This document shows positions 6,342 to 28,913 of a stretch of 64,000 bases of DNA, in pieces. Numbering within the stretch: position 1 is the stretch's first letter; each line of letters starts with the position of its first letter. A program made the translations under genes and the position numbers. The notes beneath the pieces were generated by a model, which was not told the DNA's origin, ran no database searches, and saw only the letters and a program-made list of their open reading frames with translations. The stretch is from Hahella sp. KA22 (GTDB taxonomy: Bacteria > Pseudomonadota > Gammaproteobacteria > Pseudomonadales > Oleiphilaceae): positions 5,251,644-5,315,643 of the forward strand of contig NZ_CP035490.1 in the NCBI RefSeq assembly GCF_004135205.1, read 5' to 3'.

Positions 6342-6359
6342 CCGCTGAGTTAGGCAAGA

Positions 6360-10087: not shown

Positions 10088-10139
10088 CTGATTAATAGTG
10101 GAAGTCGCTTTGATTTCGCCCATCCCTTCAAACAAACAA

Positions 10140-10168
10140 CCGGTGACGGCGATTCCGCCAGTCACCGG
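10140..10168 (-). terminator. Intrinsic terminator of the NRPS operon
   Basis: A GC-rich stem (CCGGTGACGGCG paired with CGCC-A-GTCACCGG, loop ATTC) lies 27 bases past the stop of the carbon-nitrogen hydrolase gene. On the minus strand it is followed by GTTGTTTGTTTG, a T-rich tail. Confidence 0.75.
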
Positions 10169-10194
10169 GCAGTCAAGGCTAACTTCTATACCCG

Positions 10195-10947
10195 TCAGAC
10201 AGTTCTGACGTAACCGGACCAGCCGGCTTCGGTTTTGACGCCGATAACCAAGGCTTCGCCGGTTTGCGGTCCCTGGGCCAACAGGTCGCCGCTTGGGATC
10301 CATACTGCGCTTTTGCCAATCGGCTCCCAGCCGCCGGAAGGCCCGCTGAAGTTCGACATGATGACGCACATGCCGTGGGTCTGTGCGTAGTCCTGTAACT
10401 TGGCGGTGTCTTCGGCATAGCCGCCAGCGGTAATCAATACCGAGCTTAAATACGCGACGGCTCCGGCGGCGGCCGTGTTGCGGGCATGGGTGGCGACGCC
10501 GGTATCCGCACAGATAGCCAACCCTAATGCAACGCCCTGAAGCGTAAACACCTTTTCGTCGGCGCCTGGCGCAAAGTGCTGATCCTCACCGGGATGTAAA
10601 TGCATTTTGCTGTAGTGAAATACCGGCGCTTCCGGGCTGATGACAAAGAGTCCGATGTGAGGCTTGCCTTCCCCCTCCTGCACCGGCGCGCCAACCATCA
10701 GCGTCACGCCCTGTTCTCGCGCCGCCGCTTGAAACGGCGCCAGACGAGCATCCGTATCGGTGAACGCCAACTCCCTCGCCAGGTCCGGCTCATATCCCGT
10801 CAGAGAAAGCTCAGGAAAAATGACCACATTGGCGCCTTCTTCGACCGCCGCCGCTATCAACCGCAAATGCCTCCGCGTATTTTCCTCAACATCCCCTCGC
10901 ACCGGGCCGAACTGAGCCGCGGCTATTTTGAAATCGCCTTGCATCAT
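10195..10947 (-). CDS. Carbon-nitrogen hydrolase (nitrilase superfamily)
   Basis: 250 residues from the ATG at 10947, which has AAGGA four bases upstream; an earlier in-frame ATG lacks such a site. The Glu-Lys-Cys triad is E46 in IFPELSLTGYEP, K114 in HYSKMHLHPGE and C146 in LGLAICADTG. The family hydrolyses amides, carbamoyls or nitriles, or transfers acyl groups. The substrate is not predictable. It is the last gene of the minus-strand operon that contains the NRPSs, 85 bases after azlD, and could deprotect or degrade a peptide product, release ammonia, or be unrelated housekeeping. Confidence 0.85.
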   Translation of the reverse strand: MMQGDFKIAAAQFGPVRGDVEENTRRHLRLIAAAVEEGANVVIFPELSLTGYEPDLARELAFTDTDARLAPFQAAAREQGVTLMVGAPVQEGEGKPHIGLFVISPEAPVFHYSKMHLHPGEDQHFAPGADEKVFTLQGVALGLAICADTGVATHARNTAAAGAVAYLSSVLITAGGYAEDTAKLQDYAQTHGMCVIMSNFSGPSGGWEPIGKSAVWIPSGDLLAQGPQTGEALVIGVKTEAGWSGYVRTV

Positions 10948-11032
10948 AGATTCCTTGATAAATTGCACGTGCCTGTCAGTCATTAGGCAGCCCTGGCGCA
11001 GCATCGCCACACGCCAAGGCTCAATGGGCCGG

Positions 11033-11347
11033 TTATATCATTTTCAGAAGCACAAAAACGGCCACGCCCAACGAGCTGGACAGTATAAGCCGTTTAGTGA
11101 ACAACATGATCGCAAATGTGGCCACTGACGCTAAAAAATAGGGGTGCGTCAACAGACCCAACGACACCTCTTTCTCCACGAAAACCACCGCTGGGGCGAC
11201 AAGCGCAGCGATGACCGCCGCCGGCGTCATGCGCAGAATGTTTTCCACTTTGGGGGGCAAGGGTTTCCCGGCCCAGACCACCCAGGGCAGATAACGGGGA
11301 AGAAACGCGCACACTGCGATCAATGCAATCAGAATATAAATATCCAT
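11033..11347 (-). CDS. azlD: AzlD-type branched-chain amino acid exporter subunit
   Basis: About 104 residues with four hydrophobic segments and the AzlD hallmarks FLPRYLPWVVW near the N-terminus and RMTPAAVIAALVAP in the middle. AzlD is the small partner of AzlC in exporting leucine, isoleucine, valine or amino acid analogues such as 4-azaleucine. The start at 11347 lies 1 base after the azlC stop with GGAAAG upstream, so the two are translationally coupled. Its place between NRPS-associated genes suggests export of an amino-acid-like or small peptide product. Confidence 0.85.
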   Translation of the reverse strand: MDIYILIALIAVCAFLPRYLPWVVWAGKPLPPKVENILRMTPAAVIAALVAPAVVFVEKEVSLGLLTHPYFLASVATFAIMLFTKRLILSSSLGVAVFVLLKMI

Positions 11348-11348
11348 C

Positions 11349-12137
11349 TCAGCTTTCCTTAACCTCTTCCACAACCACTTCCGCGTTTTTCACCGGAACC
11401 CATCGACCGTACAACACGCCGGCGGCGACGCCTGCGACCGTCCCCAGAATGGTTCCCAATCCGTATGGCGCATGATGCGCCAGTATCGCCGTCAGGCCTG
11501 CGACCGAGACGATGCAATAGGCTTTTCTATCCACCAGGCAGGACGCCAGCATGGCGACAAACAAAGCGGTCATGGGGAAGTCAACGCCGGAACCCGCCCA
11601 CTCAAGCAGTGCGGAACCGACCAGAATGCCGACCACGGTGGCGATCGTCCAGGCGCCATAAATGGAGAACGATCCGCCCAGATAAAACCATTGGCGGGCC
11701 GTCACCGGCGCGTCTTTATCTTTGAATTTTTCAACAAAGATAAAGAACAGCGCATCGATCAGGCCAAACCCCATCACCAGTTTCCACCCGGGGGAAATAT
11801 CATTGACTTTGTCCCGCAGCACGATGCTGTAAATCATCATGCGCAGACTCAACGTGAGCACCGTCAGCAGAACCACTGTCCAGCTCGCAGACTCCTGCAG
11901 CATCATGTAGACGACAAACTGAATGGTTCCCGAGTTCGCCAACATGGCCAGCAGCAACGTCTGCAGACCGGTCAACCCACTGGTGACGCCCAACGCCCCG
12001 GCTATCATCGCCATCGGTATGGCGGAGAGAATAAACGGGGACATGGCTTTCACGCCGTCCAGGAAGTGCTTTTGTCTTAACTCCGAGTTTAATGGCTGTC
12101 CGGAGCTGTCATCCGGTTTTGCGGCCACACTTTCCAT
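11349..12137 (-). CDS. azlC: AzlC-type branched-chain amino acid exporter subunit
   Basis: About 262 residues, six to eight membrane segments, PF03591-type. The conserved start of the domain is FLDGVKAMSPFILSAIPMAM, and the FG(L)-I-D-A-L-F motif appears as GFGLIDALFFIF. The ATG at 12137 has GGAG nine bases upstream; earlier in-frame starts at 12152 and 12170 are possible. With AzlD it forms an exporter of branched-chain or modified amino acids. It follows the ATP-grasp gene by 55 bases, and both are within the NRPS transcription unit. Confidence 0.85.
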   Translation of the reverse strand: MESVAAKPDDSSGQPLNSELRQKHFLDGVKAMSPFILSAIPMAMIAGALGVTSGLTGLQTLLLAMLANSGTIQFVVYMMLQESASWTVVLLTVLTLSLRMMIYSIVLRDKVNDISPGWKLVMGFGLIDALFFIFVEKFKDKDAPVTARQWFYLGGSFSIYGAWTIATVVGILVGSALLEWAGSGVDFPMTALFVAMLASCLVDRKAYCIVSVAGLTAILAHHAPYGLGTILGTVAGVAAGVLYGRWVPVKNAEVVVEEVKES

Positions 12138-12192
12138 ACTAAAGAACTCCATCACTGCAAATTTTTTCAAGGCCGGACATAACGCCGCCGCT

Positions 12193-13386
12193 TCAACCTA
12201 CGGTCACGACAGGGGTGAACAGCTTCAGGTGCTCATCCCGGCTTTGCGGACTGTCGGATTCAAAGATCATCCAGCCGATACGGTCATAGAATCCCGTGCT
12301 GGACTTGATCTTGTCGCCGATGCTGGCGTCCTGCTTTTGTTTAAGCACGTTCACGCTGCTTTCGAATTGAGCTGGAAATGAAAACGCCTGCAGTTCGCCT
12401 TCCTGCGCCATCACAAATTCAATGCTGACCAGACGCTCCTGGGTCTTGATCGGCGCTGGAACGGTTTTATCCGCGAGGAAATTAAACTGATCCGCAAATA
12501 CTTCCGCGCCAGTGCTGAAATGGATCAGATCGGTGATGAAGTCGCCGCCGAAGCGCGAATGCAGCTCTATGATTTCTATCTTGTCGCCGTCCACTTTGAA
12601 CTCAACATGGAAGGGGCAATTGCGCATGCTCAGCGCCTCAAACACCTGCTGGAAATATTCCGCGAAGGTTTCCAGGTGGGGATGGCGGGTGTAGAAAGTG
12701 TGGCCGGTTTCGACAAAGTAGGGGGCATCCGTCGTGCGCTTTTCCGTCAAACCGTAATAGTAAACCTGACCATCGAAGACCTGCCCTTCCACACTGAACT
12801 CTTTACCGCCGATGTAGCTTTCCACGGTAAGCTCGGTTTTATCGCCGCCATAAGGATGGCTGCGAACGCGCTCCAGATAACCTTCCACTTCCGGATAGGA
12901 AGACAGCAGTTGCACGCAAATGCTTCCTCCCAGGCGCACCGGCTTGACCACCACCGGAAAGTCGACGGAAAGCAATGCTTCCGCCAATTCAGCGACCGTG
13001 GTTCTGAACGACTGAACCGAGGACAACCCTCTTTCCACCAGGGTGTGGCGCATCAGACTTTTATCAATGCTGAACAGCTCCACGTCTTCACTATGCCCGG
13101 CGAAGCCGAAGTGTTTGCGCACTTTGGCGGCGATGGTGAGTCCGGCTTCAGCGGTGGAAATGACCTGAGTGCAGGCTTCCGCCTCCACCAGCTTGATCAC
13201 GGCGTCCACATCGGAGGGAGAGCACGCCACAGCTTTGGCGTTTTGCGGCCACCAGGAAGCGGGAATGCGATCAATCCGCTCCTGCATGTCGATAAACACA
13301 AATTCGTGCGCGCAGTTTCCCGCTTGGCTGAGAATGGACTGCGCAACGTCCAGATTAAACGGCAATGGCAATATGGCCAGTTTCAT
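12193..13386 (-). CDS. ATP-grasp ligase, NRPS cluster
   Basis: 397 residues from the ATG at 13386, preceded by AAGGA at 7-base spacing. The ATP-grasp fold is shown by FPVVVKPVRLGGSICVQLL (phosphate-clamping Lys and Gly loop), EFSVEGQVFDG, and the metal/ATP motif IEIIELHSRFGGDF, where the usual E-x-N-x-R is E-L-H-S-R. The N-terminal pre-ATP-grasp part contains a Rossmann-like half. The family joins a carboxylate to an amine through an acylphosphate, as in L-amino-acid ligases and D-Ala-D-Ala ligase. Next to NRPSs with damaged condensation domains it may form a peptide or amide bond outside the assembly line. Substrates unknown. Confidence 0.8.
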   Translation of the reverse strand: MKLAILPLPFNLDVAQSILSQAGNCAHEFVFIDMQERIDRIPASWWPQNAKAVACSPSDVDAVIKLVEAEACTQVISTAEAGLTIAAKVRKHFGFAGHSEDVELFSIDKSLMRHTLVERGLSSVQSFRTTVAELAEALLSVDFPVVVKPVRLGGSICVQLLSSYPEVEGYLERVRSHPYGGDKTELTVESYIGGKEFSVEGQVFDGQVYYYGLTEKRTTDAPYFVETGHTFYTRHPHLETFAEYFQQVFEALSMRNCPFHVEFKVDGDKIEIIELHSRFGGDFITDLIHFSTGAEVFADQFNFLADKTVPAPIKTQERLVSIEFVMAQEGELQAFSFPAQFESSVNVLKQKQDASIGDKIKSSTGFYDRIGWMIFESDSPQSRDEHLKLFTPVVTVG

Positions 13387-13434
13387 GTCTGATCCTTGAT
13401 TCATAAGTTGTTATTAATACGCAAGTCTCAACAA

Positions 13435-13462
13435 AGGCCCCACGCCGTCAGGCGCAGGGCCT
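13435..13462 (-). terminator. Imperfect terminator-like hairpin after the last NRPS gene
   Basis: Arms 13451-13462 and 13435-13446 pair over 10 of 12 positions with a 4-nt loop. On the minus strand the stem is followed by TTTGTTG. It lies between the NRPS stop and the ATP-grasp start and may attenuate transcription into the downstream genes. Confidence 0.45.
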
Positions 13463-13467
13463 CAACG

Positions 13468-16400
13468 TCATTTGGACAGTCGCATCAGCTCGCTGACCGC
13501 TGCAGCGGTTTCCGCCGGTTTGGTCCGGCAGAAGTAATGGCCTCCGTCAGCCAGCTCAACCAACGCTACTGACTCGCACACCTTGCTCCATCCCAGGTAC
13601 TGCTCCCGGTACTGCGGCGTCAGGGGATCGTCTTGCGCAGCCACCATCGTCAGAGGCAATGTCATAGGCGTTCCGTTTTCCGTTAAATCAGCAAGGTAAC
13701 GGTTGGCGCCGCAGGCGTCGTGACGGAAGGCTTTCACCAATTGCGCCAACTGGGGCTCGGACAATGCATTCAGATCGCCATAGCCAGTCTGCGTCACCAG
13801 CCACTCACCCACGTCCTTCAACGGCATGGATTCCAGCTCGGCCGCAAGGCTTCGGGAACGCTCCGCGTCAGGCAGTAACTTACCGCCGATAAATACGCCG
13901 GCGACACGGCCGCTCTTCTGTAGCAGTCCGGCGGTGGCCAGGGCAGCGGCGCTGCCGACGCAATGTCCCCAGATGAAGACATCGCCACTGATGTTAGCGC
14001 TGATTTCCGCTGCCGCCTTCTTCGCCAGCTCCTCAACGGACAACAGCGTTTCGCCGGTATCGCTCAGGTTATGCCCCGGGGGCTCCACGGCGAAAACCTG
14101 CACTTCAGCGTTCATTTCCGCGAGACGTTCGGCAAATGGTTTGAAGTTAATGGCGTTGCCGCCCGCATAGGGGAAGCACACCAGCGTGACGGGCGCCGAA
14201 CGCCGATCAGGGGTCAGCGCCACCAGAATGTCGGCCTCGTCGGCGGGCATTTTCTTTCTGGCGACATCCGCCAGCGGCGCCAGAGTGGAGTTGCGCATGA
14301 GGTCCACCAGGGAGATCAGCCCTTCCAGCAGTATCGTGACTTTCATCGCCGCCAGAGAGTTGCCGCCCAGGTCAAAGAAGTTATCGTTGCGTCCAATATT
14401 CTCTTGGGGAATCTTGAGCGCCTGCGCCCAGGCCGCTGCGATGCGCGCCTCCACAGCGTCCAGCGGCGCCTGTTGTTCCGTCGCAGTCTCGATAGATTTG
14501 CCCTGCTGCAACGCCGGCTTGCGGAACGTCAACGCAGCAGTCCCATTAACAAGCTCAACGCCGCCATCCTGCACATAGCGCCCTTTCAGATCCGTGTGTC
14601 GCAATCCCAGGCCGTTCAGGACCGGATTAACCTCAGTCTCCAGCTTGTCCGCCTCAGCGTTGACAAAATACAGGTCTCCGATAGCGCCAACAGGAATAAA
14701 ACGCCCGGATTCTCCCAGGAGATAAACGCCCGTATCCGCCCCCGCCGGTTCTGGGCGCTGCGTCAGATTCGCAGGGATGTTAGCGCCCTGCTCTGCAATG
14801 GCCGCCAGTTCCTGTTGCGTCAGAATGGGCTGGCGTCTGGGGTCCGCTTTAGGGTCCTGAGTCATACTCTCAAAGATAGTGAGATAGTATTGCGCGAAGT
14901 TCTCCACCTGCTCCGCCGTGAACGCGTGCTCGTGGTAATGCAGGCTGAGTTTGACGTCGTCAGTGAAGAAGTGGCGGCAGAACTCAGCCCGAATCGCAAA
15001 CTCCGTCTCCGAGTTCGCACGCACGTCCAGCAGATTGAACTCCGGCATTTCCTTGAGTTCTTTCAACAGATAGAAATGGGTGTAGTTGAAAGCCGTGTCG
15101 AACAGCGGCTCCTGCGTCCCGATATCCTGCTTCATACGCGCCATGGGATAGCGACGATGCGGCAGCAGCGCAGCTTCCGCCTGATACACACGCTGGATCA
15201 GCCCGGCCCAGGATTCCGCGTCGACATCCACCCGGAACGGCACGGTGTTGAGGAAAAGCCCGATCGCCTTGGTGGCGTCTTCCGCTTCAGGGCGGCCGCT
15301 ATGCTCGTAGCCGGTCATGACGTCAGCATCGCCAGACACCACACTCAGGAATTTAAGGTGCGCCGCCATCAACAGGGTTTTGACCGGAACGGCTAATTGA
15401 TCCGCCAGCGCAATGATCCTGTCGGACAGCTGCTTGCTGATGTCCACCTCATGAAACAGCACGGACAATTCCGACACAGGCTGAGCGATATCCAGTTTGG
15501 GCAGGCGAGTATAAGTCGCGCCATCCAGCATATTCTCCCAGAACGCACGGTCACTGACGGAGCGCAACGATTGGGCTTCCAGGCCGATGTAATTGCGGAT
15601 GTGATTGTCCACCAGGGGCTCGTCAAAGGTTCCGCCCTGCAGCAGGGTGTTGTATATGCGGAATAATTGCGTATGCACCAGGGTGATGCTCCAGCCGTCG
15701 AGAGCGGAGTTATGCTGACTGAGCACATAGCGGTACATGTTATCGCGCAGGACATGCACATGCAGGCGCACCAGACCAGGCTGATTCCATTCAAAGCGAT
15801 ACGCTTTCTCTTCCGCCAGCCAGTTCTGATGCCACTGCTCCTGCTCTGCTTCGCTCATTCCCCGCAAGTCATGACAGTACAACGGCGCCTCCACGTCTGT
15901 ATGCACCATCTGGATGTACTCGTCGAAGCCATCCAGGTGATAACTGGTGCGGAAGATCGGATTGCGCTTGACCAGAATGTCCGCGGCGCGCTTGAACACT
16001 TCCAGATTGATCGGGCTCTCGATGATGTAGCTGATAATGTCGTGATATTGCGCCGTACCGAAAGTCAGTTCGTTCTGGAATATCAACCCCGCCTGCAACA
16101 TGGACAGCGGATAGGCGTCATCAACGCCTTGCGGCAGGCGCTGGCGATCCTGCTCGCCCAACAGTTCAAACGCCTCAAAACGGTGCTGCTGAAGCTCGCC
16201 TTTTTCCTCTTCCATCGCCTGCGCCAACGTCGCGATCGTGGGGTTGGCGAACAATTGCTGGAAGGTGAACTCCAGATCGAATTTTCTGGCCTTGGCGAGA
16301 ACGGTGACGAAGTGAATCGAGTTGCCGCCAATCGCGAAAAAGTTATCGTGCACGCCAACCCGGGGCAGCTGCAGCACCTCACGCCAGATGTCCGCCAGAA

Positions 16401-18741: not shown

Positions 18742-18760
18742 GTCCTACTGCCTCTAAATT

Positions 18761-21700
18761 TTAAAATTCAAACTCGATTTCCGGTAACGCAACCGGACCA
18801 CTTTCTTCGTCCTGATTCAGCGTTCGAATCTGGCTATTCACATCGCTCAGCGCCTTATCAATGATCTCCAGCAGCCGATCACGGAAAGAAGCCATTGTCT
18901 CGGCGGTGAAAAGGTCCCGATTGAAATGCCAGCTTGCTCGCAGGCTGGTTTCGCCATCTTCAATTTGCAGGTTAAGGTCATAGATGGCCGCGCCGGTCGC
19001 CGCCGGCGTCCAGACGATGGAGCCACCCAAAAACGTTTGTCTGCTCAGCCCGGTGTTCTGCAACGCAAACATGGCGTCGAATAACGGAGACCTGCCATAA
19101 GAGCGCTCCGCAGCGATCTGCGCCACCAGTCGATCAAAGGGATAATCCTGGTTGTCGAAGGCGCCCAGCGTCATGCCGGCCACCTCCTGCAGATAATCGC
19201 CAAAGCTTGCCTCTGGCGCGGGCTTCAGCCTGAGACAGAGCGTGTTGACGAACATCCCTTGAATCTTGTCGACGCCGGGGGCCAGGCGACCCGCGACGGG
19301 CGTTCCTATGGTGATATCGTCAGCGCCGGTGACCTGGGCCAGGAAGACGCCATAACAGCCCAACAGAAATTGATAGGCGCTGACCTGAAGACGCTCGGAC
19401 AGGCGACGGATGTTCGCCGTCCTCTCTTCTCCCAAATCAAATTCCAGAAACTCCCCACTGAGACTGCGCACCCCGGACCTTGGATAGTCCGTGGGCAGAT
19501 CCGGTAGCGCAGGCTTCTGCGCATACATTTTCAGCCAATAGGCTTCCTGCTCCGCCAGATGGGCCTGACCGCTCTCGCTGGCCAGCCAGTGCGCATAGTC
19601 ACGATATTGCAGAGGCGACTCAGACAGACTGTGACCGCGATACAGCGCCTCCCACTCCTCAAACAAACAGAGCAGTGAGTAGCCATCAGTCAAAATGTGG
19701 TGAATATCGAAGAGCAGATAGGTTTTCTCTGTGTCGCGATAGAGCGCTGCGCGCCACAGAGGGCCCTGCTGCATGTCAAAGGGGCGGATGAATTGGGTCA
19801 GCGCATTAAATACATCCGAAGCCGCCGGAGCCTGGGCTATCGACACAGCCAGATCTGTATGAATCCGCTGAAGGGTGATCTCCCCGTCACGCTCAAACGA
19901 GGTTCGGAGAATTTCGTGTCGATCGACTAATTGCCGCAAGGACTCCTGCAAGCGAGCCGGGTTGATATCCGTCGGCAACGCCACCCAAATCGGTAAATTG
20001 TAATGACAGGCGTCCGCTTGCTTGGATTGCTCGATGAACAAACGCACCTGTTGCGGCGTCGCCTCAACGCTGGTTTGCGCAGGAGAAGCGATCACGCCAC
20101 CCGTTGACGCGCTCCGCCCCTGCTGAGCTCTGACCAGCGTCGCTAACTCCGCCACTGTTCCACTGCGTAGAACGTCCGCGACGGCGATTTTCACACCCAG
20201 GTCACGACGCGTCCGCGAGGCGATCATGACGGCGGTCAACGAACTTGCGCCCAACCTGATGAGATCATCATCCGTCGCCAAATGGTCAATGTTCAAAAGC
20301 GAGCGGCATATTTCCAGCAAAACGCGTTCATTATCATCCACCGCTTCGGCGCCGCCGGACTCTACCTGCTTCATCTCCGCCAGCGCGCGTCGATCCACCT
20401 TGCCATTAATCGTCAACGGCAATTCAGGCAGGGCCCAGACCGCAGCAGGAACCATGTGCGTGGGTAGTTGGTCGATGAGCTGCTGGCGCCAGCCATCCAG
20501 ATCAAACCCAGCGGCGACCCCCAAGTAGCAATGCAGCCGATATTCCACAGCGCCTTCCGGTTTTAATGCGAGCACCAAGGCTTCATTCACCATCGGATGT
20601 GACAGCGCCGCTTTCTCGATTTCGCCCAGCTCAACCCGAAAGCCGCGAATTTTGATCTGAAAATCCTGGCGTCCGAGAAAATCCAGCTCATCCTCGGCAT
20701 TCCAGCGCGCCCGGTCTCCCGTACGGTAGATCCGGCTTCCCGGGACATAAGGATGGGGTACAAATGCTCTCGCCGTGTCGTCTTCCCGCCCCAAATACCC
20801 TAACGCCAAGCCAGCGCCGCCGACATACAGCTCGCCTTCAAACAACGGCGGCGTCAGACGACCAAACCGGTTCAGCACCAGCGCCACTGAATTACTGATG
20901 GGGGCGCCGATGGAAATGCTGTCCAGACGCGCCGGATCAATGCGCTGCACCGTGGATATCACCCCGTTTTCAGTGGGACCGTAGGCATTCAGAATAACAA
21001 TTCCCGGGCAGGCGGCGTATACCGCCGCCACCTGCTTCGGAGAGATCACATCGCCGCCCACCAGCAACTGACTCAAAGGCGCGAACATGGCTGGATCGTC
21101 GCTGGCCAGCTGTGAAAACAGCGAGGTCGTAATCAACGCAACATCTGTTTTCCGCTCCCGGAAAAAACGCGCCAGTTCAACGCTGTCCAGGAGCACTTCC
21201 CGATCGACAATCTGCAAACAACCGCCGTTAAGCAAGGCCGCCCAGATTTCAAACACACTGGCGTCAAACCCCGTCGCGCCCGCCTGGGCGACGCGGACGC
21301 CAGACGACAAATCGAGATAGGACGTGCGTCGAACCAACCGCAAGACGCCCGCGTGCGTGTTCAGCACGCCTTTGGGACGCCCGGTGGTGCCGGAGGTAAA
21401 CATCAAATAGGCCGCCTGTGAATCCGCCGGAGCGGACTGTGACGGCGTCTGGATTTGCAGGGCGCGCACCCGCCCGCCCGGCAGGTCCAGCGACAGCGAC
21501 GCATGCGTCACATCAGCGAGGACAGTCGGCGGCGCGTCTTCACTGTGAATCAGCACGACGGCCTGGCTGTCCTCCATCAACAATTGAATGCGCTCGGCGG
21601 GATAGTCAGGGTCCAAAGGCATATAGACGGCTCCCGCTTTGAGCGCCGCCAGTGCGGAAACCGCCATGGGGATGCTGCGCGGGGTATGAATGGCGACGAC

Positions 21701-22591
21701 CTGACCGGGCTGCACGCCCAGCTCGCGCAGGGCTTGGGCGAGCTGGTAGCTGGCCTCATCCAGTTCAGCGTAAGTAAGGGATATCTCGCCATGGGTTATC
21801 GCCGGAGCCCTGGGAGTTTCCGCCACGCGCGCCGCAAACGCTTCTTCAATTCTGGCGTATTCGTCGAAGTGGGTGACCGGCGCCGTTCCCCGCTGCAGTC
21901 GTTCGGTAATTTCATTCGGAGCCAAAAGCTCCAGTTGAGACAAAGGTTTGTCCTGCAGCAAACCCATCTCCAGAATATTCATGACCGCCGCGCACAAAGG
22001 GCGCAGGTAGCTGAAGGAAGCGAAAACGCCGCCCCCCTGAACCACAACCTCGGCGCCCTCCGCCGTGACGCGCAGCCCCATGACAATCGGCGCCCGTGGG
22101 GTTTCACTCGCTCCCAGATTGAACAGCAGGGGCGTCAACAAGTCCTGCGCTGGCGGCAGAAGACCATACTCTTCCGCGGCAAGCTTGAGATAGGGAAACG
22201 CCCGGTGAGACAGCGCTTCCGCCATCGTCTTCGCTACCAGATCAATCACTGAGGCCAGATCAGCGCCGGGGTCCAGCGTAAATGTCAGCGGAATAATCGT
22301 GGCGTCGTCGAGCTGCACTGACAGCGTCTGCCGCTCCCTGTCAGTAAAATGCATCAACGCCGTCAACCATCCCGCCAGCGCTACTTGCTGCGGCGTAACG
22401 CCTATCTCGGCGGCGGCGCCTTCAATGGCGCTCAGCAGGTCTGCGCCGACAGGTATGCTCGCCACCAGACGCTCGACAGGCTCCGCCGCACGGGACGGCG
22501 CTTTCAGTTCCGTTGGCGACCACTCTGCGTCAAACAGACCTCGCCAATACGTTTCCGCCGCGCGGATCGCCTCAAGCTCGGTGAAATCCAT
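18761..22591 (-). CDS. NRPS, [C half]-A-T-C
   Basis: 1276 residues from the ATG at 22591, one base after the upstream stop, with GGAGG eight bases before it. Domains: second lobe only of a condensation domain (about 12-230, beginning ETYWRGLF); adenylation (245-745, LMFTSGTTGRPKG); carrier protein with a variant core LGASSL (attachment Ser784); complete condensation domain (843-1255) with intact HHILTDG; acidic tail ending PEIEFEF, possibly a docking segment. Specificity residues begin D-A-F and end A-V-I-K; I estimate position 278 as I, 299 as L and 301 as G. This suggests a hydrophobic substrate but I cannot name it. The condensation domain should join its aminoacyl or peptidyl chain to the serine of the next enzyme. 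Confidence 0.9.
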   Translation of the reverse strand: MDFTELEAIRAAETYWRGLFDAEWSPTELKAPSRAAEPVERLVASIPVGADLLSAIEGAAAEIGVTPQQVALAGWLTALMHFTDRERQTLSVQLDDATIIPLTFTLDPGADLASVIDLVAKTMAEALSHRAFPYLKLAAEEYGLLPPAQDLLTPLLFNLGASETPRAPIVMGLRVTAEGAEVVVQGGGVFASFSYLRPLCAAVMNILEMGLLQDKPLSQLELLAPNEITERLQRGTAPVTHFDEYARIEEAFAARVAETPRAPAITHGEISLTYAELDEASYQLAQALRELGVQPGQVVAIHTPRSIPMAVSALAALKAGAVYMPLDPDYPAERIQLLMEDSQAVVLIHSEDAPPTVLADVTHASLSLDLPGGRVRALQIQTPSQSAPADSQAAYLMFTSGTTGRPKGVLNTHAGVLRLVRRTSYLDLSSGVRVAQAGATGFDASVFEIWAALLNGGCLQIVDREVLLDSVELARFFRERKTDVALITTSLFSQLASDDPAMFAPLSQLLVGGDVISPKQVAAVYAACPGIVILNAYGPTENGVISTVQRIDPARLDSISIGAPISNSVALVLNRFGRLTPPLFEGELYVGGAGLALGYLGREDDTARAFVPHPYVPGSRIYRTGDRARWNAEDELDFLGRQDFQIKIRGFRVELGEIEKAALSHPMVNEALVLALKPEGAVEYRLHCYLGVAAGFDLDGWRQQLIDQLPTHMVPAAVWALPELPLTINGKVDRRALAEMKQVESGGAEAVDDNERVLLEICRSLLNIDHLATDDDLIRLGASSLTAVMIASRTRRDLGVKIAVADVLRSGTVAELATLVRAQQGRSASTGGVIASPAQTSVEATPQQVRLFIEQSKQADACHYNLPIWVALPTDINPARLQESLRQLVDRHEILRTSFERDGEITLQRIHTDLAVSIAQAPAASDVFNALTQFIRPFDMQQGPLWRAALYRDTEKTYLLFDIHHILTDGYSLLCLFEEWEALYRGHSLSESPLQYRDYAHWLASESGQAHLAEQEAYWLKMYAQKPALPDLPTDYPRSGVRSLSGEFLEFDLGEERTANIRRLSERLQVSAYQFLLGCYGVFLAQVTGADDITIGTPVAGRLAPGVDKIQGMFVNTLCLRLKPAPEASFGDYLQEVAGMTLGAFDNQDYPFDRLVAQIAAERSYGRSPLFDAMFALQNTGLSRQTFLGGSIVWTPAATGAAIYDLNLQIEDGETSLRASWHFNRDLFTAETMASFRDRLLEIIDKALSDVNSQIRTLNQDEESGPVALPEIEFEF

Positions 22592-22592
22592 A

Positions 22593-25592
22593 TCACTGAC
22601 CTCCATTGCCGACCATTACCGGCGCCAGTTTTTCGATGGTCTGCCGCACGTATAACTCACGTATCGGAAGCGCAGGCAGCCCCGCCGCTCTCATGGCGGA
22701 GGCGATTCTGACCGCGTAAAGGGAGTTGCCGCCAAGGCTGAAAAAGTTGTCGGCCGCGGTCACTTCGCGCCCCAGCACCTCACTCCAGACCCTGACCATG
22801 TCGGCGACGAGACGGTCAGCTTCCGTCTCCGCGGCAGTCTCTTCTGAGCTGGTTTTAGCGGGCTCGGAAGGAGCTTCCGCCACGACTTTGGGCTTATCCG
22901 CCGCGTTGCCCTGCGCATTGGGCTCAGGCAGCTTCTTAACGTCCAGCTTGCCATTCGCCGTCAGCGGCATGGCGTCAACCTGAGTGAAGGTGGAAGGCAT
23001 CATGTAAGCCGGCAGCATCTTTTCCGCTTTGACGATGACGTCCTCCACGGCGATATCCGACAGCACAAGGTAACTGTCCAAACGAGCGGAGGCCGGGTCA
23101 TTTTTATCCGGCTGGTTCAACACCACCGCCGCCGCCTCCACCCCGTGGACGCCGAGCAATACTTTGCGGATTTCATCCAACTCGATGCGGAAACCACGCA
23201 GCTTCACCTGACTATCCAGGCGCCCTAAATGCTCCAGACGTCCGCATGGCAATAAACGCCCTTTGTCGCCGCTGCGATACATACGACCACCACAGAAGGG
23301 ATCGGGCATAAAGCGTTCTTCCGTCAACTCCGGGCGGTTCAGGTATTGTGAAGCGACGCCCGCTCCCGCGACGTATATTTCCCCCGCCACGCCCACCGGC
23401 AGAATATTGCGCGCGGCGTCCAACACATATAAACGCCAACCCGGAATCGCCGGACCGACGGAACGGGAACCGGCCATAGCCTCTGCCCGCGCAATGGTCT
23501 GGGCGGTGACATGCACCGTGGTTTCGGTAATGCCGAACATGTTCACCAAACGGCAACGGGATTCCGGGTAGCGGTCGAACCACTTCATCAGCATCTTCGC
23601 GTCGAGGGGCTCGCCGCCAAAAATAACCAGTCGCAAATGCGTCAGTGGCGCTCCGCTTCGCTCCATTTCCATAAACTGGGAGAAAGCGGAAGGGGTCTGG
23701 TTCAGCACCGAAACCTGCTTTTCTCTGACCAGTTCCAGGAACTCGTCAGGCGCACGGGACACCCAATAGGGCACGATCACGAGATGGGCGCCGGTCAGCA
23801 GACTTCCCCATATTTCCCATACCGAAAAATCAAACGCGGCGGAGTGGAAAAACGTCCAGGCGTCTTTCTCATTGAGGCGAAAATCCTCCTGCGTCGCCGC
23901 CAGCAGGCTGACGACATTCTTGTGAGGAACCACCACGCCTTTGGGTTTGCCAGTCGATCCTGAGGTGTAAATCACATAGGCTGCGTCATCGGCGCTGATA
24001 TGCTCTGCAGAGGGCGTCGTCACCCGCGCATCGCCAATATCCCGCTCCAGCTCTGACGGCGCGATCAGCCGCCGCGCCTCCGTCACCGGGAATGCGTCTG
24101 CGTCGGTAATCACCAGACGGATCTCGGCATTGTCACAGGTATATGACAGACGCTCTTCCGGATAGGCCGGGTCCATAGGGATATAAATTGCGCCTGCTTT
24201 CAGAATCGCCAGCATAGAGGCGATCAAATCAAATGACCGCTCCAGGCAGATACCAACGCGATCACCGGGCTTCACGTTGAGCACGACCAGATTCAGCGCC
24301 ATAAGGCGCGCCCTGCGCTCTAAATCCGCGTAAGTCATTTGCTCGTTTTCGTAGGAGAGCGCGATGGCGTCCGGGGTACGAGCTGCCTGACGGGCGAACA
24401 ATGCCTCCAGACGTTCTGCTGGAATATCGCCAAGCTCGCGATCCACGCCTAAGGCGGCCACTTCCTGCTGCGCCTTTTCATCCAGCAGCGGAAAGCTGCG
24501 CAGATTCAATTCGCCATCTTCGCGCAGTCGCTCATACGCCCGGCGCACGCACTGGAAGAACTGTTCGACGCTGTCGCCAGAAAACAAAGCGCCGTCAGCC
24601 AGCCCGCTGATGCAATATCGCCCCTGCCCCTGACTCTCAATAAGCAGCGTTAACGGATAAGGGGCTCCCAGAGAGGGCGCATAGTCGCAAGCCGCTACTT
24701 CAGGGTGCGGTGAGGACGCGGCGTCGTATATAAGCGCCGCCAGAGATACCTCGCCGCCGTTTTCACAGTCGTGCAGACGACTCGCCAGCGCCTGCGAGCG
24801 CCAGACCGGTTGCTGCAACGACTGCTCGATGTTTGCTTTAAGACGCTGCGCTGTGGCGTCTTCCTGCACCGGCGCGGCGACCAGCGACCAACCGCTCACC
24901 GACTCGGCGCGGCTGTCATTAACGGCAACGACGGGTACGTTCGTCGCAGAATAGCGAGCCCACACCGTAGCCAGCGCACTGATCCAGCCCGCCGCCAATT
25001 GCGGGTCATCCTGGCCGCTGAAAACGCCCAGACGCATTCTGATTACGCCCTCTTCGCACTCTTCGCCCTTTCCCCGCCAGTCTGGAAGCGGTGAGAAATC
25101 AGCGGATAGCAGAGAGGTCAACTCCGGTTCACATGCGGACGCCGCCGCAGGCGGCTGGTAAACGGCGTCCTGCTCAGAGATGGCCGCACAGACGAATGCA
25201 TCCAGGGATGCTTTATCAAAAACCGCGCGATTGGCGACAATCACCAGGTCAACAAAGCGGTCTGCGTAGGTTAATAACACCACGCGGATATAGGGAAACG
25301 TCTCGGCCAGCGGCCTCTCCATTTCCTTTCTGACCCGGTCCGCAGCCTGATAGCTGTCCGCCCGCAAATGCAGCGTCTCAATCCAGACGTACTCACGCCC
25401 CTCGGCCGTCTTTTGCATAAACGGCAGGGCTGCAAGGGCGTGTTTTAGCCGCATCGCAACGGCCTCTGGATTGACGGATTGCGTCAGTCGATAGGCGGCG
25501 GCGTGCAGTGCGCCGGGCGCCACATCGCCGTCACTCAGGTAAGAGCTCAGATTCCCGGCTATTTCCGGGTGATTCAAAAAAATGCTTTTCAT
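22593..25592 (-). CDS. NRPS, degenerate C-A(Thr)-T
   Basis: 999 residues. The first 380 have the size and pattern of a condensation domain but the HHxxxDG site is NRAVFDK (121-127), so only the Asp remains and catalysis is not expected. The adenylation domain (395-890) has IYTSGSTGKPKG at 541-552. The specificity residues (D588, F589, W592, N631, I657, G659, M685, V693, H694, K882) spell the established threonine code D-F-W-N-I-G-M-V-H-K. An alanine/glutamate-rich linker (895-925) leads to a carrier protein with LGGNSL (Ser957). It is the first NRPS in transcription order and probably the loading module. The stop overlaps the ribosome binding region of the next NRPS gene. Confidence 0.92.
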   Translation of the reverse strand: MKSIFLNHPEIAGNLSSYLSDGDVAPGALHAAAYRLTQSVNPEAVAMRLKHALAALPFMQKTAEGREYVWIETLHLRADSYQAADRVRKEMERPLAETFPYIRVVLLTYADRFVDLVIVANRAVFDKASLDAFVCAAISEQDAVYQPPAAASACEPELTSLLSADFSPLPDWRGKGEECEEGVIRMRLGVFSGQDDPQLAAGWISALATVWARYSATNVPVVAVNDSRAESVSGWSLVAAPVQEDATAQRLKANIEQSLQQPVWRSQALASRLHDCENGGEVSLAALIYDAASSPHPEVAACDYAPSLGAPYPLTLLIESQGQGRYCISGLADGALFSGDSVEQFFQCVRRAYERLREDGELNLRSFPLLDEKAQQEVAALGVDRELGDIPAERLEALFARQAARTPDAIALSYENEQMTYADLERRARLMALNLVVLNVKPGDRVGICLERSFDLIASMLAILKAGAIYIPMDPAYPEERLSYTCDNAEIRLVITDADAFPVTEARRLIAPSELERDIGDARVTTPSAEHISADDAAYVIYTSGSTGKPKGVVVPHKNVVSLLAATQEDFRLNEKDAWTFFHSAAFDFSVWEIWGSLLTGAHLVIVPYWVSRAPDEFLELVREKQVSVLNQTPSAFSQFMEMERSGAPLTHLRLVIFGGEPLDAKMLMKWFDRYPESRCRLVNMFGITETTVHVTAQTIARAEAMAGSRSVGPAIPGWRLYVLDAARNILPVGVAGEIYVAGAGVASQYLNRPELTEERFMPDPFCGGRMYRSGDKGRLLPCGRLEHLGRLDSQVKLRGFRIELDEIRKVLLGVHGVEAAAVVLNQPDKNDPASARLDSYLVLSDIAVEDVIVKAEKMLPAYMMPSTFTQVDAMPLTANGKLDVKKLPEPNAQGNAADKPKVVAEAPSEPAKTSSEETAAETEADRLVADMVRVWSEVLGREVTAADNFFSLGGNSLYAVRIASAMRAAGLPALPIRELYVRQTIEKLAPVMVGNGGQ

Positions 25593-25655
25593 GGAAGTGC
25601 CTTATGTCGAATGAGAAAATCTGGACAGTCCTTGGCGAAGACCTCTTTCCACCGC

Positions 25656-26480
25656 CTAACGCGCGGAGAAGCCGCCGTCGACGGTGATCACGCTTCCGGT
25701 GACCTGACGGGACTCGTCAGAAGCCAGCCATACGGCGCTATGGGCGATATCCTCAGGCTCGATCAGCGCATTCATAGGCTGCGCCTGCACAAAGGTGTCC
25801 TCGTGCTCGGAGACAGGCACATGCAGGGAGCGTGCGATCTCCGACAACATGCGGCCTTCGACATGGGAGGCGTCGCGAACGGACCCTGGGCATAATGCGT
25901 TTACCCGGACTTTAAGAGGGGCATAATCAAGGGCGACGGCTTTGCTCAACCCGATAACGCCATGTTTGGCCGCCACATAGCCGGAGAAGTGTCGATAACC
26001 GACCACTCCCGCCGTGGAAGCAATGTTGATGATGCTGCCGGAGCGACGCTCCGTCATGGCGGCGCCCACGGCGCGAATCATCCGCCAGGCGCCGGAAAGA
26101 TCGACGTCAATCATGGTCGTCCATTCATCTTCACTGATGTCATGGGCGATTTTTCCAGACGGCGCAGCGATGCCTGCGTTATTCAACAGCACATCAATGC
26201 GTCCGAAACGATCCAGCCCTTTTGCGACGACAGCATTGATCTCAGCTTGTCGCGTCACATCCGCCAGACCGGTCAATACCGCGACGCCCTGCTCTTCACA
26301 TAATTGAGCGGTATATTGCAGTTGGCTTTCTGATCCGAGGGGATAAGGCACGGTGGCGATGTCCCGTCCAATATCCAGCAGTATCAGGTCCGCCCCTTGC
26401 CTGGCGAACTCAAGGGCGCAGGCGCGCCCCAACCCTCTGGCTGCGCCGGTGACCAGCGCTACTTTTCCTTTTAGTCTCAT
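25656..26480 (-). CDS. SDR oxidoreductase, mycofactocin-type subgroup
   Basis: 274 residues from the ATG at 26480, preceded by AAGGAG at six bases. Rossmann motif TGAARGLG, NNAG, and Tyr-x-x-x-Lys in GYVAAKHG. The segment DIGRDIATVPYPL and the insertion after it resemble the SDR subgroup annotated as mycofactocin-coupled, which binds its nicotinamide non-exchangeably. The resemblance is by eye; no mycofactocin genes are in the window. It lies between the type II thioesterase and the first NRPS genes (gaps 42 and 63 bases), so it likely oxidises or reduces a hydroxyl/keto group of a precursor or tethered intermediate, for instance the threonine side chain. Confidence 0.85.
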   Translation of the reverse strand: MRLKGKVALVTGAARGLGRACALEFARQGADLILLDIGRDIATVPYPLGSESQLQYTAQLCEEQGVAVLTGLADVTRQAEINAVVAKGLDRFGRIDVLLNNAGIAAPSGKIAHDISEDEWTTMIDVDLSGAWRMIRAVGAAMTERRSGSIINIASTAGVVGYRHFSGYVAAKHGVIGLSKAVALDYAPLKVRVNALCPGSVRDASHVEGRMLSEIARSLHVPVSEHEDTFVQAQPMNALIEPEDIAHSAVWLASDESRQVTGSVITVDGGFSAR

Positions 26481-26522
26481 AATTATCTCCTTGACGACAC
26501 TGCGATCCACTAATAACAAGAA

Positions 26523-27227
26523 TTAAAGAACCGCACTTTCGATCAGGGCGATAAGCGCCTTGGGATCGTCCATCAAATACATATGACCGCCGGGGAGTTC
26601 TTCGTGCAGAGTTTGCACGGAAGAAGCTTTGCTCCAGAGCGCTTTATCCTCAGCCGTCACCAGTTCATCGTCACTGCCGCGAATAGTCAGCACCGTGATC
26701 GGCAAGGAGTCATCCGCCAGAGGGTGATAGCTTTCATGCATCTCCACATCCGCACGCAGCGTCGGCAACAACACTTCCCGCATGATAGGGTCTTCCAGGG
26801 CGGGATGAGAGTAGCCGGCAAACTCATTGACCCGGCGTACAAATTCATCATCCGGCAACCCAGAGGCGCGCTCTTCCCTGCTGTTCCATGGGCTTGGAGA
26901 GCCACTCACGATTAACCCCTGCACATTGGCCTTTTCCTCTCCGCACATGGCGCGCGCCAGCTCAAACGCCAGCACGGCGCCCAGACTGTGTCCGAAAAAG
27001 ACGATGGGGTTGGAGAAATCCAGCTCAGCCATTAACTCGGGCATAATGCCTTGCACCGCTTCCGCTACGTTGGTGTATGCAGGCTCAACAAAGCGCTTCT
27101 CCCGTCCTGGCAACTGCACAGCGATCACATTGAGCTTGTCGGACAAATCCTTCCACTCGTGAAACACCGATGCGCCCGCGCCAGCGAAGGGGAGACAAAC
27201 CAAGTTAACCAGAGAGACTTCTTTCAT
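26523..27227 (-). CDS. Type II thioesterase of the NRPS cluster
   Basis: A 234-residue stand-alone alpha/beta-hydrolase of the GrsT/SrfD type. N-terminal LVCLPFAGAGASVF, catalytic Ser81 in FFGHSLGAVLAFEL, an Asp in IRGSDDELV and His in LPGGHMYL. These enzymes clear misloaded or stalled acyl groups from carrier-protein arms. It is the first gene of the operon; AGGA nine bases before the ATG serves as ribosome binding site. Unlike the thioesterase fused to the last NRPS, it keeps the normal Ser nucleophile. Confidence 0.92.
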   Translation of the reverse strand: MKEVSLVNLVCLPFAGAGASVFHEWKDLSDKLNVIAVQLPGREKRFVEPAYTNVAEAVQGIMPELMAELDFSNPIVFFGHSLGAVLAFELARAMCGEEKANVQGLIVSGSPSPWNSREERASGLPDDEFVRRVNEFAGYSHPALEDPIMREVLLPTLRADVEMHESYHPLADDSLPITVLTIRGSDDELVTAEDKALWSKASSVQTLHEELPGGHMYLMDDPKALIALIESAVL

Positions 27228-28154
27228 TTTCTGTATCCTTTAGTTATTACTATTTCCTTTTTCGCCGGCGTATTTATAAACGCCAGACAATAGGAGGCCA
27301 TAAAGCCTGTTTAGCTTTATATAAAATATAATGAGCGGTATTTATCGACGGACTAGAATAAGTCTATGCAAGGTTCCATATACTTCCCTTTCCACAATTA
27401 ATACTTCCTGATTCCCGTTAATGTTGTCCAAATAGACAGATAACTTATACGCAAACCATTTAATGCTCGCCAGATTGCATGAACATGACTAAAGAAACGT
27501 CATTAGCGTTCGCTTCCCCCATAAGGGCGTATCTCTATAACTTACTGATTAGCAGTAATAAAATGAGAAAACACCTCCATGCAACGCAAGTATTGGCGCG
27601 CCTGACAGCATAATTTCCATAACGACAGGTTGACGTCATTTTTGCTACGACCTTAAAAATAAGGCGTGGAAATTTCACTTAAACATTTAACTATACTTGT
27701 ATAAACGGGATAAGAAGCGGTGGAGAGAAGAACCCGAGAGAATATAGCCGGGATAGGACATAAACGGACGGATAGAGGCCGTCCCCTTTGGCTTATGATA
27801 CAACATCCTGTAATACTCGTAGTGTTGTTAATGTTTAATCAACAAAACGTGATTATATATATTTTTTTAGCCGCTTCAATCTGATAATCAGTATTTTTTA
27901 CTATATTCCAGCGTTAGGGTATAAAGTCGCTCTTCCTATCGCCTGTTTGCTCAATGAGCCTGCATCAATAGAGCGCACTTTCGGCAGCCGCCCCCTTCAA
28001 TTACCGTGCGCCGGGATGTTTTTTGCCGACATTATTGTTCGCGAATTTCGGATAGTCCAATCATAAAAAGTGGATTTATCCCTCACAACATCCCCAATAA
28101 ACTGGTCCTGACACTGAGAAGCAGGCATCCAACACCCCACTCTGGAGACGATAA
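27228..28154. other. AT-rich 0.9-kb divergent intergenic region
   Basis: No gene seen on either strand. It must hold the promoters of the NRPS operon (minus) and the SDR gene at 28155 (plus). Small palindromes are present: 27300-27320 (listed), TTCGCGAA near 28039 and CTGATAATCAG near 27881. I could not fix a -35/-10 pair with confidence and saw no Fur-box or lux-box consensus. Confidence 0.6.
27300..27320. promoter_or_regulatory. Inverted repeat upstream of the NRPS operon
   Basis: Perfect 7-bp arms ATAAAGC and GCTTTAT with a 7-base spacer, 73 bases before the first start codon of the operon. Size and position suit a dimeric regulator site, but no regulator gene lies in the cluster. Confidence 0.4.
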
Positions 28155-28913
28155 ATGAGCAGCAAAGTCGCAATAGTCACTGGCGGAAACCGCGGTCTGG
28201 GTATGAACACCATATTGCATCTGGCGAAAAAAGGCGTGGATATCATTCTGACCTATCGCAGCAACCGCGCCGAGGCGGAGGATGTGGTCGGCGAGGTGCG
28301 TCAAATGGGGCGCAAGGCGGTCGCATTGCAACTGGACGTCGCCAATAGCAAAAGTTTCACAGATTTCGCCAAGTCCGTGGCGCAGGAACTCGACGCCAAC
28401 TGGGGGCGTGAGCAGTTCGACTATCTGGTGAATAACGCAGGGATCGGCATCCATGCGCCTTTCGCGGAAACAACGGAAGAGCAGTTTGATCAGTTAGTGA
28501 ATATTCATCTGAAGGGCGTGTATTTTCTGACGCAAAAGCTCCTGCCATTGATCGCGGACGGAGGCAGAATCGTCAACATCTCCACCGGTCTCGCCCGCTT
28601 CTCCCTGCCCGGTTATTCAGCGTACGCAGCAATGAAAGGCGGCGTAGAGGTGTTGACCCGCTATATGGCGAAAGAACTCGGAGCGCGAGGCATAGCCGTG
28701 AACGTGGTCGCGCCAGGCGCTATTGAAACGGATTTCGGACAGGGACTGGTGCGCGATAATTCGGAGATCAACCAGTTTATCGCCTCACAAACCGCACTCG
28801 GACGCGTCGGTCTACCGGACGATATTGGCGGCGTCATCGCCTCTCTGCTCTCAGAGGACAATCGTTGGATCAACGCTCAACGCATTGAAGCGTCCGGCGG
28901 GATGTTTCTCTAA
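28155..28913 (+). CDS. SDR oxidoreductase (3-ketoacyl reductase-like)
   Basis: 252-residue classical short-chain dehydrogenase with TGGNRGLG cofactor loop, NNAG, catalytic Ser in ISTGLARFS, and Tyr-x-x-x-Lys in YSAYAAMKGG. The basic/acidic pattern (TYRSNRAEAE after the second strand) favours NADP. GGAG lies six bases before the ATG. It is divergent from the NRPS operon and separated by 0.9 kb, followed by its own terminator, so it is probably a monocistronic gene. Substrate unknown; it may or may not work with the cluster. Confidence 0.88.
   Translation: MSSKVAIVTGGNRGLGMNTILHLAKKGVDIILTYRSNRAEAEDVVGEVRQMGRKAVALQLDVANSKSFTDFAKSVAQELDANWGREQFDYLVNNAGIGIHAPFAETTEEQFDQLVNIHLKGVYFLTQKLLPLIADGGRIVNISTGLARFSLPGYSAYAAMKGGVEVLTRYMAKELGARGIAVNVVAPGAIETDFGQGLVRDNSEINQFIASQTALGRVGLPDDIGGVIASLLSEDNRWINAQRIEASGGMFL

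Follow-up and report, generated by a model that had tools for sequence, protein, structure and literature searches.

A nonribosomal peptide synthetase operon of Hahella sp. KA22 with a cysteine thioesterase and a candidate threonine beta-lactone product

In the genome of Hahella sp. KA22 (6.96 Mb, single contig), we analyzed a stretch of 64,000 nucleotides, here called the window, which carries nine minus-strand genes in a row. They encode, in order, a type II thioesterase (TEII), a short-chain dehydrogenase/reductase (SDR), three nonribosomal peptide synthetases (NRPS1, NRPS2 and NRPS3), an ATP-grasp ligase, the exporter subunits AzlC and AzlD, and a carbon-nitrogen hydrolase. A sequence-only reading of the window had named these families, and the positions of the open reading frames (ORFs) and the Pfam profile matches agree with it for all nine. 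The nine genes do form an operon, which is conserved and evolves under purifying selection. Our model for its product, in which we place a little less than even confidence, is a tripeptide X-Ser-Thr, or X-dehydroalanyl-Thr, that is released as a C-terminal threonine beta-lactone and exported by AzlCD. The product is probably small, as had been supposed before. Nor did our literature search, which did not reach most subscription papers, find a product for the cluster, in keeping with the earlier view that it has no characterised match. The antiSMASH NRPS clusters of five Hahella genomes have been reported, and the portion of that text available to us names no product for this one (PMC9030710).

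Together, the three synthetases contain three adenylation (A), four thiolation (T) and two complete condensation (C) domains. NRPS1 (22593..25592, minus strand, as for all operon genes below) has an A and a T domain and no recognisable C domain on either side of them. Its N-terminal 395 amino acids (window 24408-25592, minus strand), conserved in Hahella and in Vibrio, gave neither a family match at a usable E-value nor a PDB hit; a model of their fold was useless (mean pLDDT 39). NRPS2 (18761..22606) consists of a partial C domain, an A domain, a T domain and a complete C domain with the motif HHILTDG. NRPS3 (13468..18741) is made up of half a C domain, an A domain, a T domain, a C domain of the dehydrating type, a linker of about 110 amino acids, a last T domain without an A domain of its own, and a thioesterase. 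The C domain matched at the N-terminus of NRPS2, and likewise that of NRPS3, is represented by its C-terminal half alone. The adenylation pocket codes, read with PheA as a ruler, are DFWNIGMVHK (NRPS1), DAFLLGAVIK (NRPS2) and DVWHFSLVDK (NRPS3). We take the first to specify Thr and the third Ser; the second, whose residue we call X, matches no code known to us. The inputs proposed previously, Thr, one unassigned residue and Ser, are therefore borne out by the codes. That reading had passed over the strongest clues to the product, all of them in NRPS3: the cysteine thioesterase, the dehydrating-type C domain and the missing A domain. The half C domains and a plasmid copy in Vibrio were also absent from it.

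The terminal thioesterase of NRPS3 (13471..14226, minus strand) carries the motif GHCVG, a GxCxG form in which Cys1594 takes the nucleophile position usually held by Ser. Its best PDB sequence matches are ObiF1 of the obafluorin pathway (2e-27) and SulM of the sulfazecin pathway (3.5e-19), followed by RedJ (8e-14). Cys1594, Gly1620, Asp1705 and His1735 align to Cys1146, Gly1173, Asp1254 and His1284 of ObiF1, so that the domain has its Asp at position II, a small residue (Gly) at position I, and the His. Mutation of each of these four ObiF1 residues has been reported to lower product (PMC6668435; PMC11298585). A structural model built from 11 sequences (mean pLDDT 88.9) likewise gave ObiF1 and SulM as its top fold matches. 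In a 26-row thioesterase tree, the NRPS3 domain falls in a clade of 13 rows (support 99/98) with ObiF1, SulM, other cysteine thioesterases and one serine thioesterase, that of a Streptomyces sp. NBC_01431 plasmid, which sits on a long branch. Since this serine enzyme lies within both that clade and a narrower group around ObiF1 and SulM, the tree alone leaves the chemistry undecided. The cysteine itself is constant, being found in all four NRPS3 thioesterases compared at full length (three from Hahella, one from Vibrio); in the remaining Hahella copy, that of genome G149, the position falls in a contig gap.

Hahella also has other NRPSs. As a control, we looked at other thioesterases of seven Hahella genomes, where 68 matches led to 30 fetched loci and 24 examined ones, four of them the operon's own TEII. 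All 24 have Ser, and so do six further places (five in KA22, one in G149). In the KA22 genome, 10 of the 13 other thioesterase matches were examined, the three left out being weak ones, and each has Ser. In the accounts available to us, ObiF1 and SulM are the only two NRPS thioesterases shown to form four-membered rings on release, other clusters being predicted to do so; in SulM, exchange of the Cys for Ser is reported to lead to hydrolysis. We predict that the NRPS3 thioesterase releases its product with formation of a beta-ring. The system shares with ObiF1 the thioesterase sequence and fold, the Cys-Asp-His set with Asp at position II, the Gly at position I and the availability of a beta-hydroxy amino acid. 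It differs in having three NRPSs and a predicted tripeptide, and in that no transaldolase or MbtH family member was matched among the nine proteins (E<=0.001).

SulM, second-best in both sequence and fold, raises the possibility of a beta-lactam of the monobactam kind, as in sulfazecin, which is also a small tripeptide made with a cysteine thioesterase bearing Asp at position II. The features described for a SulM-type beta-lactam thioesterase (PMC11298585) are missing here: the Gln-Cys-Asn motif of SulM was not found in the NRPS3 thioesterase, the last T domain has no A domain and the codes are for Thr, X and Ser, leaving no diaminopropionate-type module, and no sulfotransferase is present among the nine proteins. 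We rejected monobactam formation on these grounds and regard a beta-lactam as highly improbable.

Cysteine thioesterases also occur elsewhere. A plasmid of Streptomyces sp. NBC_01351 encodes an NRPS (L090:7901-12714) with an A domain, a T domain and a cysteine thioesterase of the ObiF1/SulM type, a candidate ring-former; it adjoins an ATP-grasp ligase and a gene annotated argH. More cysteine thioesterases were seen in Caballeronia, Azospirillum, Streptomyces clavuligerus, Embleya and one further genome (L089, L092-L095), three of them with an AAAFP or AAAYP stretch.

The dehydrating-type C domain of NRPS3 has McyA (1.6e-78) and AmbE (1.2e-56) as its best PDB matches, and the McyA domain is said to dehydrate its substrate. 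In a 21-row C-domain tree, which includes some duplicate or overlapping rows, it joins McyA and AmbE with 100/100 support, apart from the C domain of NRPS2. Its place after a module with a Ser code is that expected for a dehydrating C domain. A study of the AMB pathway places the C domains of AmbE and McyA in one group (PMC4357302), and dehydration has been reported for the AmbE domain (PMC10880069). Thus, because a C domain of the dehydrating clade follows the Ser module, conversion of Ser to dehydroalanine (Dha) is a fair prediction.

The same domain order brings to mind albopeptide, a linear Val-Dha-Dhb peptide made from Val, Ser and Thr (PMC10880069), where Dhb is dehydrobutyrine. Its synthetases, AlbA and AlbB, likewise use Ser and then Thr, with a dehydrating C domain after Ser, and release occurs there through the dehydrating C domain rather than through a cysteine thioesterase as here. 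A linear X-Dha-Thr could accordingly be hydrolysed off NRPS3, with the cysteine altering only the rate and no lactone being formed; if X were Val, its residues would equal those of albopeptide. One cysteine thioesterase of known structure, AB3403, is described as uncharacterised in the part of the literature available to us (PMC11298585), which also leaves room for such a role. Against it stand the whole ObiF1/SulM hallmark set, including Asp at position II and an IGG stretch, and the Ser found in the other Hahella thioesterases examined. We consider a linear dehydropeptide unlikely.

How Thr would reach the thioesterase is suggested by the arithmetic of the domains, as the NRPS3 carrier without an A domain pairs numerically with the A-T protein without a C domain, NRPS1. 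A stand-alone A-T for Thr and an acceptor T lacking an A domain are both present, the layout of the SyrB1/SyrC and LgnA systems. Loading in trans has precedents in SyrB1/SyrC/SyrE (PMC8949500), LgnA/LgnB/LgnD (PMC8748450) and AmbB/AmbE (PMC4357302). The syringomycin and legonmycin systems have in common with this operon the stand-alone A-T for Thr, an alpha/beta-hydrolase as shuttle candidate and a C-T acceptor without an A domain, and SyrE also ends in C-T-TE, where TE is the thioesterase; the operon is set apart from them by the lack of a halogenase, the SDR gene adjoining the A-T gene, and the cysteine thioesterase. Hahella sp. KA22 has been named among strains with LgnA-like clusters (PMC8748450), and the cluster meant may be this operon. 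The shuttle candidate here is TEII (26523..27227; 234 amino acids; Pfam Thioesterase 1.4e-35; 81% identical to its Vibrio orthologue), with a GHSLG motif and Ser-Asp-His. In the 26-row tree, which included no LgnA sequence, it lies on a long branch among the TEIIs. By analogy, we propose that TEII is a shuttle moving Thr from NRPS1 to the last NRPS3 carrier, or else a proof-reader.

Gene order alone would favor a collinear Thr-X-Ser product, with NRPS1 passing Thr to NRPS2 through its unrecognised N-terminal domain. Both that region and NRPS2's partial C domain are indeed conserved, with ratios of nonsynonymous to synonymous substitution rates (dN/dS) of 0.13-0.21. An HHxxxDG motif was found in neither, though, and the NRPS2 match is confined to the C-terminal half of the C domain; such a path would also leave the last carrier empty. 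It strikes us as quite improbable.

The missing A domain of NRPS3 can be viewed next to the uncharacterised NRPS pair of the Streptomyces sp. NBC_01431 plasmid (L091:3053-17206), whose first member resembles NRPS2 (35%) and whose second resembles NRPS3 (40%), with an ATP-grasp gene nearby. The second aligns to NRPS3 residues 4-1340 (at 40%) and 1402-1754, with a whole A domain between the two segments. The pair thus differs from the Hahella synthetases in its third A domain, as well as in the diaminopropionate genes nearby and in its serine thioesterase. A relic A domain between the C and last T domains of NRPS3 was considered; its resemblance was not significant (z 0.7), and we call this segment a linker.

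Taken in order, the steps would run as follows. NRPS2 would activate X, probably an aliphatic residue, and its complete C domain would join X to Ser on the first T domain of NRPS3. The dehydrating-type C domain would then act on Ser, perhaps turning it into Dha, and join the dipeptide to whatever the last carrier holds. This would be Thr, activated on NRPS1, perhaps modified by the SDR, and moved in trans by TEII onto the T domain without an A domain, in the manner of SyrC or LgnA. The cysteine thioesterase would take the chain, and, as happens with ObiF1, ring closure by the beta-hydroxyl of Thr would give a four-membered beta-lactone. A further amino acid may subsequently be attached at the amine end by the ATP-grasp ligase in Hahella, AzlCD would export the product, and the hydrolase might trim it or protect the producer. 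Of the possible routes, this is the simplest in which each conserved part of the NRPSs is used once.

Several observations weigh against this model. In the thioesterase, Arg1190, Asp1177 and Arg1263 of ObiF1 are not kept, Asp1177 and Arg1263 being reported as dispensable in ObiF1 (PMC6668435), and support for the narrower ObiF1/SulM group, in which the serine enzyme is included, is only 87/86. The Ser-Asp-His pattern of TEII is common to ordinary proof-reading TEIIs. The weakest point is the motif of the NRPS3 C domain, QHNSALDG in both Hahella and Vibrio, where Asn replaces the second His of HHxxxDG. McyA and AmbE retain HH, and in AmbE a change of the second His is among those that lost much or all of the product (PMC10880069). 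Because this catalytic His is replaced, the NRPS3 C domain may be unable to form a peptide bond, or to dehydrate. Countering inactivity, few parts of the operon are as well conserved as this domain (dN/dS 0.02-0.06), and its closest relative, that of Streptomyces sp. NBC_01431, has Ala at the same place (HA for HH).

A later account of the AMB pathway, in which the T domain without an A domain receives the dipeptide passively and no third residue is added (PMC10880069), offers another way to read these features. Here the second NRPS3 carrier would take X-Ser or X-Dha by transthioesterification, and the thioesterase would free a dipeptide, possibly as a Ser beta-lactone, with the Thr of NRPS1 being used elsewhere. 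A C domain without its catalytic His would fit, as would the AmbE layout, A-MT-T-C-T-TE, where MT is a methyltransferase domain. AmbB and AmbE share with the present system the arrangement A-T-C plus A-T-C-T-TE, the second T domain lacking an A domain, and a C domain of one clade; unlike it, the AMB system has the methyltransferase domain, two partner oxygenases, activation of Glu and a LysE-type exporter, whereas the operon has a third NRPS and the SDR. Neither an Fe(II)/ketoglutarate oxygenase nor a methyltransferase domain of the AMB type was found among the nine proteins. Passive transfer would leave NRPS1, TEII and the SDR without a role, although all three are conserved in all copies examined. 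An earlier AMB study showed loading in trans of such a carrier (PMC4357302), and the Streptomyces relative with Ala at the His has a complete A-T after its C domain, so that condensation would be expected there. We find passive transfer a doubtful account of the operon.

The beta-lactone model also has to accommodate the accessory proteins. The SDR (25656..26519; Pfam 1.3e-54; nearest PDB sequence carveol dehydrogenase, 3oec) is the most conserved gene of the operon and sits between TEII and NRPS1. Its substrate is perhaps carrier-bound Thr. Lasting oxidation of the beta-hydroxyl would make a Thr lactone impossible, so that a redox epimerisation or a different substrate is the likelier case. 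The ATP-grasp protein (12193..13404) is a ligase distantly of the L-amino-acid-ligase type. AzlC (11349..12170; Pfam AzlC 2.5e-27) and AzlD (11033..11374; Pfam AzlD 3.1e-21) are the large and small subunits of an AzlCD-type amino-acid exporter. The carbon-nitrogen hydrolase (10195..11010; Pfam CN_hydrolase 3.7e-28) has the letters of the Glu-Lys-Cys triad. The roles given above to the ATP-grasp ligase and the hydrolase are guesses. ATP-grasp genes adjoin or lie near related NRPS genes in two Streptomyces plasmid clusters, one of them with a cysteine thioesterase, so this pairing recurs. The closest plasmid relative of the ATP-grasp protein (42%), on a Burkholderia glumae plasmid (L082:20010-21200), lies among different neighbours, which include MFS transporters, a coenzyme F390 synthetase-like gene and an SDR.

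To assess conservation, six other Hahella genomes (G145 to G150) were compared with that of KA22. All nine genes are present in three of them (G145, G146 and G149), with identities across the operon-bearing genomes of about 87 to 99%. In G149, the operon is divided between two contigs, and a short piece of NRPS3 is lost in the gap; this genome gives the match of the Hahella sp. HN01 record, whose ATP-grasp protein matches at 98%. In G147, G148 and G150, searches with NRPS3 and the ATP-grasp protein found no orthologue of either. As the flanks align in all operon-bearing Hahella (at about 86-97% in G145, G146 and G149), the operon occupies one chromosomal place. Every tested domain that gave a value had a dN/dS below 0.3 (AzlD was left out, and the hydrolase gave none against Vibrio). 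Values were lowest for the SDR (0.005-0.028), the dehydrating-type C domain (0.022-0.057) and the first T domain (0-0.043) of NRPS3, and highest for the NRPS3 linker (0.16-0.29).

Outside Hahella, AzlC was searched against 72,556 plasmid records, of which one reached 60% identity or more: plasmid p2 of Vibrio tasmaniensis LMG 20012, typed as conjugative. Its copy (L083:6130-22737) has TEII, SDR, NRPS1, NRPS2, NRPS3, AzlC, AzlD and the hydrolase in the Hahella order, together with a phosphopantetheinyl transferase; recombinases and a transposase of the Tn3 family are close by. Proteins of the two genera are 72-94% identical, with the hydrolase an outlier at 35%, and all three pocket codes are the same. 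The G+C content is 48% for the Vibrio operon against 59% for the Hahella NRPS genes, which suggests that transfer between the two was not recent. The ATP-grasp gene, present in all four Hahella copies, is absent from the 40.8-kb p2 stretch, and no relative was found elsewhere in that Vibrio genome at E<=0.001, an empty answer that proves little by itself. Since the Vibrio copy keeps the order without ATP-grasp, the core is eight genes, with the ninth gained in Hahella or lost in Vibrio. The view of the genes as one unit therefore holds in that they form a single operon, and fails in that the nine are not an obligatory set: a fixed nine-gene unit is ruled out by the one copy of five in which the NRPSs occur without ATP-grasp, while no copy has them without AzlCD and the hydrolase.

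Wider searches covered samples of larger groups, except that the 227 genomes of the genus Vibrio are not marked as a sample, and do not show absence elsewhere. The ATP-grasp protein matched in 4 of 145 genomes of the order (E<=1e-20), the three other than KA22 being only 26-30% identical. NRPS3 matched in 7 of 29 relatives (E<=1e-100), with orthologues of at least 93% confined to KA22 and three Hahella, and its C-T-TE part in 3 of 390 genomes of the order (E<=1e-60), two of which match in the C domain only, at about 30%. The thioesterase alone was found in 1 of 369 genomes of the class, that of KA22; in 2 of 325 genomes of another order, namely the Vibrio copy and one at 33%; and, at E<=1e-25, in 1 of the 227 Vibrio genomes, the bearer of p2. 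A pattern scan of genome contigs with the ATP-grasp protein, a method that detects close relatives only, returned only Hahella sp. HN01. The thioesterase had no match in 50,697 phage records, and we rejected a phage link.

The operon ends in a strong intrinsic terminator (10133..10172, minus strand), as had been predicted; the RNA of this segment folds to -22.5 kcal/mol (z -4.5) and is followed by a U-rich stretch. The 1-base spacing claimed for NRPS1/NRPS2 and azlC/azlD holds when an internal in-frame ATG is taken as the start; with the furthest starts the genes overlap instead, NRPS1 and NRPS2 by 14 bases. A promoter-like site (27852..27879, minus strand), a consensus match only, precedes the first gene by about 620 bases, in a region where six such sites were found against 9.3 expected, i.e. 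no excess. An Rfam search of the window matched no RNA element. About 930 bases (27228-28154) precede the operon, followed by a divergent SDR gene (28155-28913, plus strand) that aligns in all three other operon-bearing Hahella and does not appear in the gene annotation of the Vibrio stretch. Further out, a DDE transposase gene (31408-32616, plus strand) lies in a region that the aligned flanks of G145, G146 and G149 lack. On the other side, two adjoining ABC exporter genes (4530-8165, plus strand), likely forming a heterodimer, belong to the conserved flank; nothing ties them to the operon.

Obafluorin has been reported to inhibit threonyl-tRNA synthetase (ThrRS) (PMC9963991). A second, shorter ThrRS above the NCBIfam cut-off occurs in all four operon-bearing Hahella, in none of the three without the operon, and not in the one operon-bearing Vibrio. 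In KA22, its gene (L096:8294-9541, i.e. 4,596,293-4,597,540 of contig C1, minus strand) is an intact 415-amino-acid ORF covering profile positions 171-562, with the N-terminal part of the profile missing, and is unlinked to the operon, 0.67 Mb away. Each of the four matches was marked with one in-frame stop, which lies upstream of the ORF's ATG in KA22 and G146, the two checked. Genome G147, without the operon, has a 197-residue N-terminal ThrRS match near a contig end. A bolder version of our model, which we rate as rather unlikely, is that of a mobile Hahella/Vibrio pathway making an X-dehydroalanyl-threonine beta-lactone with two electrophiles, in which TEII would deliver Thr in trans, the C domain lacking the His would join it and the cysteine thioesterase would close the ring; the product may hit ThrRS, with the short second enzyme protecting the producer. 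Ancestry accounts equally well for the distribution of the second ThrRS.

The beta-lactone warhead is known from few assembly-line peptides. If the model is true, the NRPS3 thioesterase would be the third NRPS thioesterase to form a four-membered ring, in another assembly line and group of organisms, and with Thr as the closing residue. The pathway would combine three exceptions to NRPS rules, loading in trans, a dehydrating-type C domain without the His, and release by cysteine, all within three proteins of a size that permits reconstitution. With Asn in place of the second His, the domain is a natural variant in which one can test directly what this His does in C domains of the kind. As the Vibrio copy demonstrates, a conjugative plasmid can harbour the pathway.

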